From Thiomicrorhabdus chilensis DSM 12352 (GTDB lineage Bacteria > Pseudomonadota > Gammaproteobacteria > Thiomicrospirales > Thiomicrospiraceae), in assembly GCF_000483485.1 (NCBI RefSeq), contig NZ_KI519609.1:2199460-2263459 (forward strand): a stretch of 64,000 bases of DNA, given 5' to 3'. Positions 32,146-54,121 of the stretch are shown piece after piece (within the stretch, counting starts at the first letter, position 1; the number at the start of each line of letters is the position of its first letter). Made by a program: the position numbers and the translations under genes. The notes below the pieces were generated by a model, which worked only from the letters and a program-made list of their open reading frames with translations, made no database searches and was not told where the DNA came from.

Positions 32146-32163
32146 AAACGCCCTCAAGCGTTT
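32146..32163 (-). terminator. Terminator of the proximal riboswitch expression platform
   Basis: On the minus strand AAACGC (32158-32163) and GCGTTT (32146-32151) form a 6-bp hairpin followed by TAAATTT. The 5' arm shares three bases with the 3' strand of aptamer helix P1 (32161-32165), so P1 and the terminator exclude one another. Confidence 0.6.
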
Positions 32164-32235
32164 GCAACCTGGCGATCTCAAATTCATGTCGAGACCCATG
32201 GCTTTCCGTCCTTGCTTCACAACAAGTTTGGCAAA
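32161..32235 (-). promoter_or_regulatory. c-di-GMP-I (GEMM) riboswitch, copy A (gene-proximal)
   Basis: Read on the minus strand, the order is CCAAACTTG, a GTGAAG loop, CAAGGACGGAAAGCCATGGG, then a second hairpin, then GATCGCCAGGTTGC. This is the conserved core of GEMM-I aptamers (CAAACC, GGACGCAAAGCC, GGGTC, GATCGCCGGGTTGC). P1 is TTTGC (32231-32235) with GCAAA (32161-32165). The base before AAAGCC is G instead of the usual C. The overlap of P1 with the downstream terminator predicts that ligand turns expression on. Cyclic GMP-AMP specificity cannot be excluded from sequence alone. Confidence 0.85.
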
Positions 32236-32347
32236 TACAACATTAACAAACCAAAACAGAAATGAGTTATGCAAAAACCGGAAACAGCCGCACAACAACA
32301 TAATAGATAGAAAGGAAAAACATCCCTACCTATAAAGAAGAGTTAAC

Positions 32348-32423
32348 TTGGCAACCTGGCGATCTCAAGTTCATGTCGAGACCCATGGCTTTCCGTCCTT
32401 GCTTCACAACAAGTTTGGCACAA
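32348..32423 (-). promoter_or_regulatory. c-di-GMP-I (GEMM) riboswitch, copy B (promoter-proximal)
   Basis: This copy differs from copy A at only one base across the roughly 67-nt core (T to C in the second hairpin), so it is a recent duplication or kept alike by conversion. P1 here is weaker, TTG-T-GC (32418-32423) with GCCAA (32348-32352) and one bulged base. I see no clear terminator directly after it, so it may act with copy A on the single downstream terminator, giving a steeper or lower-threshold response. Confidence 0.83.
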
Positions 32424-32484
32424 CAAATTTTCTATTTAGACATTCAGTTTCGTAAGCACAATAGAATTACAAAACCTACATTTC

Positions 32485-45410: not shown

Positions 45411-45869
45411 ATGAACAGTGACCCAAACAAAGACGACTTGAGAGCAGAGCCCAAATACGTCAAGAGTTTTCAACAAGAACTCTTAAGCAAACTCATCCAT
45501 TTGGCCGAATTTGTAGGCTTGACGGTGATCGCCATAGCGACCATCTATGCCGGCGCGATGGAAGTCAGCGGAATGATCGAAATTCGTGAAGTCACCCTCG
45601 GCGACTTGCTGCTTTTATTCCTTTACCTTGAAGTCCTGGCTATGGTTGCGATCTACTTGGAGTCAGGCAAACTTCCGATTCGCTTGCCCTTATACATCGC
45701 CATTGTCGCACTGGCGCGTTACCTTATCCTAGACCTCAAGGATTTGACCGAGTGGCAAATGCTTGCCATTGGATTTACCATTACCCTCATTTCGATTGCG
45801 GTACTGATTCTGCGATACGGCCATATCAACATGCCATATCCTCCAGTACGCAAACCCAAAGACAACTGA
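45411..45869 (+). CDS. PsiE-like membrane protein
   Basis: The 152-residue protein has four hydrophobic segments (about 30-50, 62-82, 88-106 and 117-136). It contains LLLLFLYLEVLAMVAIYLES and LARYLILDLKD, typical of the phosphate-starvation-inducible PsiE family, whose function is unknown. I use the ATG at 45411, with GGTGAG 8 bases upstream, rather than the GTG at 45402. purC follows after 21 bases. Confidence 0.85.
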   Translation: MNSDPNKDDLRAEPKYVKSFQQELLSKLIHLAEFVGLTVIAIATIYAGAMEVSGMIEIREVTLGDLLLLFLYLEVLAMVAIYLESGKLPIRLPLYIAIVALARYLILDLKDLTEWQMLAIGFTITLISIAVLILRYGHINMPYPPVRKPKDN

Positions 45870-45890
45870 TTACATCGTTAGGAAATGTCC

Positions 45891-46778
45891 ATGCAACCAT
45901 TATACGAATCGAACTTAACCAGCCTGCCTTTAATCAGCAAAGGAAAGGTGCGTGACATCTACGACATTGATGATCAGCACCTTTTGATTGTCACCACGGA
46001 TCGCATTTCTGCATTTGATGCCATCCTACCGACGGCCATACCGGGTAAAGGTCGCATCCTGACAGAGACTGCGCAATTCTGGATGAAAAAGACCCAGGAC
46101 ATCCTACCCAACCAACTGGTGACCAACATCAGCCTGGCCGATTACCTCACACCAGACGAACTCAAACAACTGGATGGTCGCGGCATGATTGTGCGTAAAC
46201 TTAAACCCCTTCCGGTTGAGGCGATTGTGCGAGGCTACCTGGTAGGTTCAGGATGGAAAGAATACAAGAAAAAACACAGCGTATGCGGCATCCCACTAGA
46301 AGAAGGGTTGAAAAAAGCACAAAAACTTCCGACGCCACTTTTTACTCCCTCCACCAAAGCCGCAGTGGGCGAACACGATGAAAACATCAGTTTTGACCAA
46401 CTCATTGAGATCATGGGGCAACATAAAGCGGAAGCGGTGCGCGACTTAAGTTTGAAACTATATGAGTTTGCGGCCAATTTCGCTCTGGAACGTGGCATCA
46501 TCATCGCTGATACCAAATTTGAATTTGGCGAAGATGAAAATGGCACCATCTACCTGATCGACGAAGCCTTGACGCCTGACAGTTCACGTTTCTGGCCTGC
46601 CTCAAAATACGAGGTCGGCAAAAACCCGGAAAGCTTCGACAAGCAATACATTCGCGATTATCTGGAGTCACTGGACTGGGATAAGAATTCAACTCCACCT
46701 GAATTGCCGGAAGACGTGGTATTTAAAACCCTTGAAAAATACCAGGAAGCTCAAGCGCGCTTGACCGAAAACCTGTGA
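45891..46778 (+). CDS. purC: Phosphoribosylaminoimidazole-succinocarboxamide synthase
   Basis: PurC joins aspartate to CAIR in purine synthesis. At 295 residues it is the longer form resembling yeast ADE1 rather than the roughly 237-residue E. coli type. Motifs are SKGKVRDIYDIDDQHLLIVT, TDRISAFDAILPTAIPGKG, VRGYLVGSGWKEYKK and DTKFEFG. I chose the ATG at 45891 since AGGAA lies 7 bases upstream; an ATG two codons earlier is too close. bioD follows. Confidence 0.96.
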   Translation: MQPLYESNLTSLPLISKGKVRDIYDIDDQHLLIVTTDRISAFDAILPTAIPGKGRILTETAQFWMKKTQDILPNQLVTNISLADYLTPDELKQLDGRGMIVRKLKPLPVEAIVRGYLVGSGWKEYKKKHSVCGIPLEEGLKKAQKLPTPLFTPSTKAAVGEHDENISFDQLIEIMGQHKAEAVRDLSLKLYEFAANFALERGIIIADTKFEFGEDENGTIYLIDEALTPDSSRFWPASKYEVGKNPESFDKQYIRDYLESLDWDKNSTPPELPEDVVFKTLEKYQEAQARLTENL

Positions 46779-51656: not shown

Positions 51657-52838
51657 TTACTTTGCTGCTGCTTTTTCTAACATTTCAACAGCAGGTAGTT
51701 TTTTGCCTTCCAAGAACTCAAGGAAAGCTCCACCACCGGTAGAGATGTAAGAAACCTGATCGGCGATGTCGTATTTATCGATAGCCGCCAAAGTATCCCC
51801 ACCACCTGCGATAGAGAATGCGTTTGATTCTGCAATCGCCATAGAGATGGCTTTGGTTCCTTCACCAAACTGATCGAATTCGAAAACACCAACCGGACCG
51901 TTCCAAACAACAGTACCAGCGTTTTTGATGATGTCAGCCAATTCAGCTGCAGAATCCGGTCCGATATCGAAAATCATGTCATCATCCGCTACTTCGGAAA
52001 CATTCTTGGTTTCGGCAGCCGCAGACTCAGAGAATTCTTTACCGCATACCACATCAGATGCCAATGGAATAGCCGCGCCGCGACCTTCCATGATTTCATT
52101 CAACTTCTTACAGGTTGGAACCAAATCGCTTTCAGACAAAGATTTACCCACATTGTAACCGGCTGCTTCGATGAAGGTGTTGGCGATACCACCACCTACA
52201 ACCAACTGATCCACTTTCTCAGATAGAGATTCAAGAACTGTCAGCTTAGTAGAAACTTTAGAACCACCAACGATTGCTACCATTGGACGAGCAGGATTAT
52301 TCAAAGCTTTACCAAGCGCGTCCAATTCTGCTGCAAGCAAAGGACCGGCACAAGCCGTGTCGGCAAAAGCTCCGGCACCGTGAGTAGAAGCTTGGGCACG
52401 GTGCGCCGTACCGAAAGCATCCATTACATAAACATCACACAAAGCTGCGTACTGCTTAGATAGAGCTTCGTCGTTTTTCTTTTCGCCAACGTTAAAACGT
52501 ACGTTTTCAAGCAGTACTACGTCGCCGTCTGCGATATCGAAGTTACCATCTAGATAATCTTTAACAAGACGTACTTCTTTACCCAACTTAGCAGACAGGT
52601 CGGCGGCAACTGGAGCCAAAGAGAACTCTGCTGCATATTCACCTTCGGTAGGACGACCCAAGTGAGACATAAGCATGACTTTAGCCCCGGCTTCTGAAGC
52701 CATTTTGATCGTAGGAAGTGAAGCGCGGATACGCGCATCAGAAGTTACTTTACCGTCTTTAACTGGCACGTTTAAATCTTCACGAATCAATACGCGCTTA
52801 CCAGCTAGGTCTAGATCAGACATCTTAATTACAGACAT
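51657..52838 (-). CDS. pgk: Phosphoglycerate kinase
   Basis: Pgk phosphorylates 3-phosphoglycerate in the Calvin cycle or the reverse in glycolysis. The 393-residue protein has [45 protein letters not shown] and the nucleotide site [11 protein letters not shown] followed by GGGDTLAA. It lies between gap and pyk. Confidence 0.98.
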
Positions 52839-53008
52839 AATAAGTCCTCTTTTATGGTTTAAAAGCCACCTCCAAGAATCGGAGAGGCGTTAGATTTAAG
52901 GTAATTAAACTTACTTTTCGATACTCGCAACCCGTTTGGCTACAAATACGGATAAGAAAATTTAATTTAAGGAAGGAATAATCCCCCCTTAAATTTAAAT
53001 AATCGAAT

Positions 53009-53112
53009 TTCTGGGTTCAGTAGTGACTTCAGTTCAAGGCGGATAGAGGGCGTGTACATGTGTACACAACCGAAAGACAACGCAGAAATGAAGTTGCTAA
53101 TGAACTCAGAAA
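53009..53112. repeat. Large imperfect palindrome between gap and pgk, centred on GTGTACATGTGTACAC
   Basis: Outer arms 53009-53031 and 53089-53112 are imperfect inverted repeats (17 of 21 core positions match). The centre 53052-53067 is an inverted repeat GTGTACA-TG-TGTACAC. The element starts 5 bases after the gap stop. It resembles dispersed intergenic palindromic repeats, and its RNA would fold into one long hairpin. I see no second copy in the window. Confidence 0.7.
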
Positions 53113-53116
53113 ACGA

Positions 53117-54121
<1,005 letters not shown>

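Follow-up and report, generated by a model that had tools for sequence, protein, structure and literature searches.

A palindromic element between gap and pgk of Thiomicrorhabdus chilensis belongs to a dispersed repeat family with a likely relationship to ERIC

Introduction

What is the long palindrome that lies between gap and pgk in Thiomicrorhabdus chilensis DSM 12352, and might it set the transcript of the one gene apart from that of the other? The locus lies in a stretch of 64,000 nucleotides from contig NZ_KI519609.1, referred to here as the window. The original prediction, made from the letters of the window alone, described a palindromic block that could be a dispersed repeat, either MITE-like or REP-like, or a stabiliser of the 3′ end of the gap message. 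The structure, conservation, distribution and placement of the block were examined, and the possible functions are weighed on that basis.

Structure of the element and its position between gap and pgk

The imperfect palindrome centred on GTGTACATGTGTACAC proved to be real, and its fold was not equalled by shuffled sequences on either strand. The + strand (53000-53125) folds at -50.7 kcal/mol (z -7.5) and the gap-sense strand (52985-53125) at -44.8 kcal/mol (z -5.4), with 0 of 200 shuffles as good in each case. The proposed length of 104 bases (53009-53112) was too short: the matched arms extend beyond those limits and give 120 bp, with TAATCG (53000-53005) pairing with CGATTA (53114-53119) at the outermost positions. 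The features of the locus are collected in Table 1. An A+U-rich stretch comes after the hairpin of the element.

Both gap and pgk are encoded on the minus strand, and the element is therefore the 3′ side of gap; in gene direction the order is gap, element, terminator-like hairpin, pgk. The placement of the block after gap and before pgk in the original prediction needed this minus-strand correction, and the distance of five bases that it gave was about right (four bases separate 53112 from the stop codon). It had also judged the block to be unlike a simple terminator. This judgement holds, because a separate terminator-like hairpin stands behind the element, and a plain terminator was rejected as the identity of the element for the same reason. 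No Rfam family matched the element, whether at gathering scores or at relaxed E-values, or the elements of six further loci, and a known RNA family was set aside on that result.

Table 1. Features of the gap-pgk region of the window. Genes were called as longest open frames.
Feature	Position in window	Strand	Remarks
pgk, next gene downstream of gap	51657..52838	-	phosphoglycerate kinase part of PRK13962, under the cut-off of that bifunctional model
Intrinsic-terminator-like hairpin with U-rich tail	52954..52995 (stem 52995-52964)	-	separate from the element; consensus scan only
Palindromic element, entire	53000..53119	- (gap-sense)	outer arm includes the gap stop codon
Covariance model R2 match	53019..53101	+	80.7 bits
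Conserved box TTCAAGGCGG (gap-sense CCGCCTTGAA)	53033..53042	+	read on the better-folding strand
Central hairpin GTGTAC-ATGT-GTACAC, GTGTACATGTGTACAC	53052..53067	.	pairs maintained via double changes in relatives
Conserved box CAACGCAGAAAT (gap-sense ATTTCTGCGTTG)	53078..53089	+	read on the better-folding strand
gap stop codon TAA (TTA on +)	53117..53119	-	final bases of the outer arm of the element
gap, type I glyceraldehyde-3-phosphate dehydrogenase	53117..54115	-	TIGR01534 above cut-off

Conservation of the element behind gap

A GapDH protein match was obtained in 32 of 32 Thiomicrorhabdus genomes, paralogues counted. Thirty gap loci were fetched and 29 were read, the other one ending inside gap. 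Directly behind the stop codon of gap, the element is present in 25 of the 29, and the model strand is antisense to gap in 25 of 25; the weakest of these copies (L317) scored 27.2 bits. There was no element match behind gap in G005, G018, G019 and G028. No clean empty site was recognised at these four loci, and in G028 an apparent decayed hairpin lies behind gap.

When the 25 orthologues from the gap locus were aligned alone, 94.2% of the cells were paired and 22 of 27 pairs had double changes. The covariation score was 0.540, against 0.195 for shuffled and at most 0.137 for slid alignments; these controls guard against the advantage that the structure gains from having been predicted on this very alignment. 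The covariation among the orthologues implies that pairing has been maintained at one site while the arms diverged.

Four genomes of the genus have a second element, upstream of gap (L303:2620-2703, L304:2620-2703, L316:2647-2730 and L317:1262-1345), with scores of 36-49 bits.

Copies in the genome and breadth of the family

The BLASTN search that had been suggested as a check returned one full-length copy in the T. chilensis genome, and in relatives copies of the full block, and others of its central part, were present at other sites. Covariance models were more sensitive. Model R1 derives from an alignment (A2) of 21 distinct regex matches, in which 88.2% of the cells are paired, 18 of 21 pairs have changed on both sides, and covariation is 0.592 against 0.157 shuffled and 0.109-0.144 slid. 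Model R2 was built from 32 of 36 collected stretches, and as its training set included the gap-element copy itself, the 80.7-bit match in Table 1 is not independent; R1, R2 and R3 were all trained on members of the family. All copy counts from genome searches are lower bounds.

In the T. chilensis genome, R1 gave at least six matches at E<=0.01, and at least eight at E<0.05 when that genome was searched alone, and R2 gave at least five at E<=1e-4. Three of the R1 matches (63655, 346371 and 2192388) were left out of the count because they belong to a sibling repeat with seven copies. With the models combined, the remaining copies lie behind gap, a CbbQ-like gene, purB, rpsT, rlmH and ilvC. The models thus find five copies beyond the one from BLASTN, and a single-copy palindrome was rejected; the outcome that would have told against a repeat, a lone copy without conservation, is at odds with these copies and with the 25 occupied gap loci. 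Within the 64-kb window, the gap element is the sole R2 match at E<=10.

The sibling palindromic repeat occupies seven places in the genome (L145-L151) and reads GGCAACGGCCAA .. ATCAAGGCGTGAAGTTG .. CAACGCAGAG .. TTGGCTAAGCCCC in its better copies. It has the two outer boxes in common with the gap element.

The family extends well outside the species. R1 matched in at least 39 of 58 genomes, with up to at least 30 copies per genome in the genus, at least 46 in G034 and at least 66 in G045. Across the class Gammaproteobacteria, R2 at E<=1e-4 matched at least 55 of 369 sampled genomes, which represent at least 45 of 271 genera. In a phylum sample, which overlaps partly with the class sample, at least 60 of 398 genomes matched at E<=1e-5. 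The 12 genomes with named loci, which were chosen for having the element, contained at least 2-29 R2 copies each. Of the 23 stretches returned by a strict pattern scan of named genomes, 12 are from Clostridial MAGs and mostly have other ends, of the TAGGGTGTGTTTCTAAA type and its inverse. A plasmid search with the gap element gave two 37-base matches (E 0.3) from one organism. Copies inside one genus are not independent. The gap block is firmly established as a member of a dispersed repeat family.

Mobile relatives

In G034 and G045, the core of the element is found inside near-identical repeats of about 125-150 bp with the ends GTAACTGCTCAG / CTGAGTAGTTAC, the left end being doubled. Of the copies read, 10 of 20 from G045 and 5 of 23 from G034 are flanked by exact 8-bp target duplications; if one mismatch is allowed, the numbers rise to 15 and 9, respectively. 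The best of the possible end pairs was taken for each copy. The repeat ends match those of ISDge4, which the available text of PMC12898284 places in the ISBst12 group of the IS66 family, with a repeat of 8 bp. The MITEs of G034 and G045 and the gap element have the same core hairpin and equal arm length, but the gap element lacks the IS66/ISBst12-like ends and has its own, TAATCG/CGATTA; the GTAACTRYTCAG terminal-repeat pattern gave 0 matches in the T. chilensis genome. The MITE-like half of the dispersed-repeat proposal is therefore borne out by copies in the genome, genus and class and by mobile copies with 8-bp duplications, and the REP-like half is not.

An IS66 transposase was considered as the partner and rejected, PF03050 having no match in any of the eight genomes searched, T. 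chilensis included (the G034 and G045 assemblies are fragmented). Several G045 contigs (L152-L157 and L161-L163) nevertheless end 120-125 bases inside sequences of two kinds that share the ends of the MITE and start with GTAACTACTCAG; these may represent both ends of an autonomous element, present in many copies, that partners the MITE. A further repeat in G045, starting with GTAACTACTCAGCGCCCCAG and having a different interior, was seen in L158, L159, L160 and L164. A literature search for 10-12-mers of the element yielded, among the matches listed, only the ISDge4 ends as being of interest. By description, not by sequence, the family resembles QMITE2 of Coxiella, which in the available text of PMC5896051 is a small MITE located mainly in 3′ UTRs and intergenic regions and flanked by direct repeats of 7-11 nt.

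Placement behind stop codons

Placement was assessed with 117 model matches in 100 loci, of which 110 were used after seven duplicates or weak matches had been dropped. Among 66 copies from the genus, 51 lie no more than 25 nt behind a co-directional stop codon, and none of the 66 occupies the mirror position. The genes upstream of the 51 were compared by BLASTP with 11 reference proteins, and 47 fell into groups: gap (14), purB (6), dnaN (6), ubiE (5), a CbbQ-like gene (4), a SlyD-like gene (4), a cyclic-nucleotide-binding protein (3), rpsT (2), and rlmH, ilvC and the frame of L123 itself (1 each). The L123 upstream frame does not group with that of L067. The other four (ileS, gph, lpd and a cytochrome, named by eye) grouped with none of the references.

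When ten of the proteins were searched with NCBIfam, GapDH, PurB, S20, IlvC, DnaN and UbiE scored above a cut-off; the CbbQ-like ATPase (with GvpN/CobS models), the SlyD-like isomerase and Pgk matched only below it, and there was no match for the cyclic-nucleotide-binding protein. The names CbbQ-like, SlyD-like, Pgk, cyclic-nucleotide-binding protein and RlmH, like those of the four ungrouped proteins, were assigned by eye.

The remaining 15 genus copies comprise six second tandem copies, seven in tRNA operons (tRNA-Gly/tRNA-Glu) and two others. Outside this set, 76 further copies were examined, nearly all from other taxa; one (L212) is from the same genus, and three matches, as well as ten matches in nine re-fetched loci, were omitted. 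Here, 33 lie within 30 nt behind a stop codon, against 3 in the mirror position. The mobile copies show little bias, with 7 against 3 of 23 within 25 nt in G034 and 1 against 0 of 20 in G045, and only 1 of 10 copies from Clostridia lies within 30 nt behind a stop codon.

In the tRNA clusters of L142, L049, L059, L056, L069 and L065, the element stands between tRNA-Gly and the next tRNA-Glu, twice over in L142. In G034, two tandem elements (L094:1501-1708) directly precede the tmRNA gene, and their better-folding strand is the tmRNA strand.

Strand asymmetry

To avoid favouring either strand, only Watson-Crick pairs were scored when the arms were aligned. On the gene-sense strand of the 51 genus copies behind stop codons, A.C mismatches outnumber G.T by 109 to 10, and the other strand folds better in all 51; for the other 15 genus copies the counts are 18 and 8, with the other strand folding better in 14. 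At the gap locus, the strand that is not gene-sense has 52 G.T against 8 A.C, or 22 against 7 when counted as distinct states. By copy, 19 lean toward G.T on the complement strand, two lean the opposite way and four are even. The complement strand folds better in 23 of the 25 gap-locus copies and in 73 of the 76 further elements. The mismatch bias and the fold bias together imply that the strand with the kept fold is the complement of the preceding gene; at gap, the strand that folds better, and has G.U where the other has A.C, is complementary to the gap mRNA. For the copies in tRNA operons and ahead of tmRNA, it is the transcribed strand that folds better.

The A.C excess is inherited in part from the mobile form; at positions where the mobile form is mostly paired it is still 71 against 21 (sum over the position table). 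A mutational strand bias was also considered as the cause of A.C over G.U, but the usual leading-strand C-to-T bias would push in the opposite direction.

Relationship to ERIC

ERIC repeats, also called IRU or RU-1, have been known since about 1990. They are about 120-127 bp long and form one long imperfect hairpin, and the 120-bp gap element has the same form: like ERIC, it is an extragenic palindrome of close to 127 bp that folds as one hairpin (z -7.5 and -5.4). The boxes AAGGCG, GGAG-hairpin-TGAC and AACGCAG occur in this order on one strand both in the family and in the tested E. coli ERIC copies. ERIC differs from the gap element in its longer inner stem and its terminal sequences. Insertion of ERIC duplicates TA. 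The gap element begins and ends with TA, which would fit such a duplication, and no clean empty site was recognised among the four gap loci that lack it.

Of 5426 E. coli genomes, 5375 contain the centre of ERIC. Three E. coli chromosome loci, two of which are one and the same, gave R2 matches at the ERIC centre and nowhere else (17.1 bits). In eight further, divergent ERIC loci, R2 matched five end to end on the expected strand (15.3-18.0 bits, E 0.027-0.097) and one partially, and two had no match at E<=1; the 64-kb window, by comparison, has no R2 match at E<=10 apart from the gap element. R3 ranked ERIC first in its loci (E 0.022, 13.8 bits). An ordered signature of 21 bases was complete in ERIC (21/21) and reached at most 19 in 5000 random palindromes, but its boxes had been trimmed with knowledge of ERIC. 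When the consensus boxes were left untrimmed, 197 and 171 of the 5000 palindromes (about 4%) equalled ERIC. A window match to R3 at 45866-45937 scored 18.1 bits, above the 13.8 of ERIC, and was set aside as false, since it shares sequence with the beginning of a coding frame and folds no better than shuffles.

ERIC reportedly has a preferred orientation next to stop codons (De Gregorio, 2005). Orientation matters for the effect of ERIC, according to the available text of PMC2229807. In the loci read here, the distance from the stop codon to the start of ERIC is 6 nt for cusC, 1 nt for ybhI and 6 nt for potI, with the orientation of the gap family. These three (1-6 nt) stand among ten distinct loci, in which three are mirror copies at 19-25 nt (L324, L326 and L327), three are neither and one is unannotated; the count in these few loci is 3 against 3 mirror, and that for the gap family in the genus is 51 against 0 of 66. 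The better-folding strand is the same as in the gap family in 9 of 10 ERIC copies, and the G.U excess is not repeated in ERIC arms (G.U 24, A.C 33, by a crude count). Kinship of the family with ERIC is likely, not proven.

The host range of ERIC is given as Enterobacteriaceae and Vibrionaceae in the available text of a review (PMC10969869). A search for literature on palindromic or ERIC-like repeats in the present organisms, or outside the known ERIC hosts, gave nothing on point among the matches listed, which covered few subscription papers. ERIC is described as an element of those two families, and the family described here, which ranges far wider, may be its unrecognised kin.

Possible functions

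The explanation favoured here, a tentative one that stops just short of being probable, is that the gap block is a long-fixed copy of an ERIC-like MITE and that, between gap and pgk, it works as a hairpin that governs mRNA stability under the control of translation. A mobile, ERIC-like palindromic repeat would have been fixed with one end supplying or abutting the gap stop codon, and would be transcribed as the 3′ UTR of gap. Ribosomes arriving at the stop codon, which sits within the outer arm, would disturb that arm, and this disturbance may decide whether the hairpin protects the end of the message or exposes a cleavage site. The level of the gap transcript would in this way be set apart from that of pgk.

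There is a precedent for such a role. In the available text of PMC2229807 and PMC10969869, ERIC copies that lie 3′ of genes in Yersinia are described as lowering the upstream transcript through an RNase E site that becomes unmasked; ribosomes take part, and orientation is crucial to the outcome. The gap element fits the geometry of the Yersinia case, having the stop codon inside the outer arm and a fixed orientation, and the T. chilensis genome has two genes of the RNase E/G family. From its position, the covariation at the gap locus and the ERIC precedent, a role in setting gap against pgk is plausible. Several observations run against the mRNA-stability hairpin. The G.U strand is not the one in the gap mRNA, which is not expected of a simple mRNA hairpin, and the terminator-like hairpin behind the element could itself set gap against pgk. 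The model scores for ERIC are weak, ERIC placement is mixed, 4 of 29 loci are without the element, and the mobile copies are little biased.

The element might instead be a selfish relic without host function, an unlikely reading. MITE copies would then persist behind stop codons as the least harmful sites, and template-switch correction, rather than selection, would keep the arms of the quasi-palindrome complementary. Mobile copies with target duplications are known in the family, adjacent arm bases sometimes change jointly on both sides (L292 against L312, for example), and the number of matches per positive genome varies from 1 to 66 (lower bounds). However, neutral correction predicts neither a strand-specific preference for G.U over A.C, nor conserved boxes across two phyla, nor retention behind gap in 25 of 29 loci.

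Alternatively, the selected product might be a hairpin RNA from the + strand of the window, antisense to the 3′ end of gap. The fold of the + strand is the better one in this copy and in 23 of the 25 at the gap locus, that strand has G.U over A.C (52 to 8 at the gap locus, 109 to 10 over the 51 genus copies), and it is the transcribed strand that folds better in tRNA operons and ahead of tmRNA. Such an RNA is nevertheless improbable, as a simple scan found no sigma-70-like promoter on either strand of 52830-53250 and Rfam gave no match.

The palindrome is long and the family moves as DNA with target duplications, which would suit a DNA-level site, either a cruciform or a palindrome bound by protein, at which a nucleoid protein, a topoisomerase or a transposase would act. 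Recognition of double-stranded DNA predicts no strand asymmetry, however, and within the genus the position follows stop codons, making this reading a distinctly poor prospect. A REP/BIME-type palindrome or plain terminator, also extragenic palindromes behind genes, is hardly credible for an element of 120 bp with two conserved boxes flanking an inner hairpin and a separate terminator-like hairpin next to it, REPs being far shorter (20-40 bp in the available text of PMC3733652).

Beyond the gap locus, it is conceivable, though somewhat doubtful, that one core, consisting of the hairpin, two fixed boxes and a strand-specific fold, is common to the MITEs with IS66-like ends of Gammaproteobacteria, the TAGRGTGTGTTTCTAAA-ended repeats of rumen Clostridia, the ERIC of Enterobacterales and the host-fixed copies located behind stop codons or within tRNA operons. 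It would then be a functional module carried across phyla and kept as a 3′-end control, with ERIC as one branch. Possible relatives of ERIC would be supplied by a wide family that includes mobile members, has a conserved core and, within a single genus, sits strictly at stop codons, and the bias of G.U over A.C indicates which strand is kept. For T. chilensis, the element is a candidate control point between gap and pgk.

Elsewhere in the window, two c-di-GMP-I riboswitch matches lie in tandem on the minus strand, about 100 bases apart (32160-32242 and 32347-32429).
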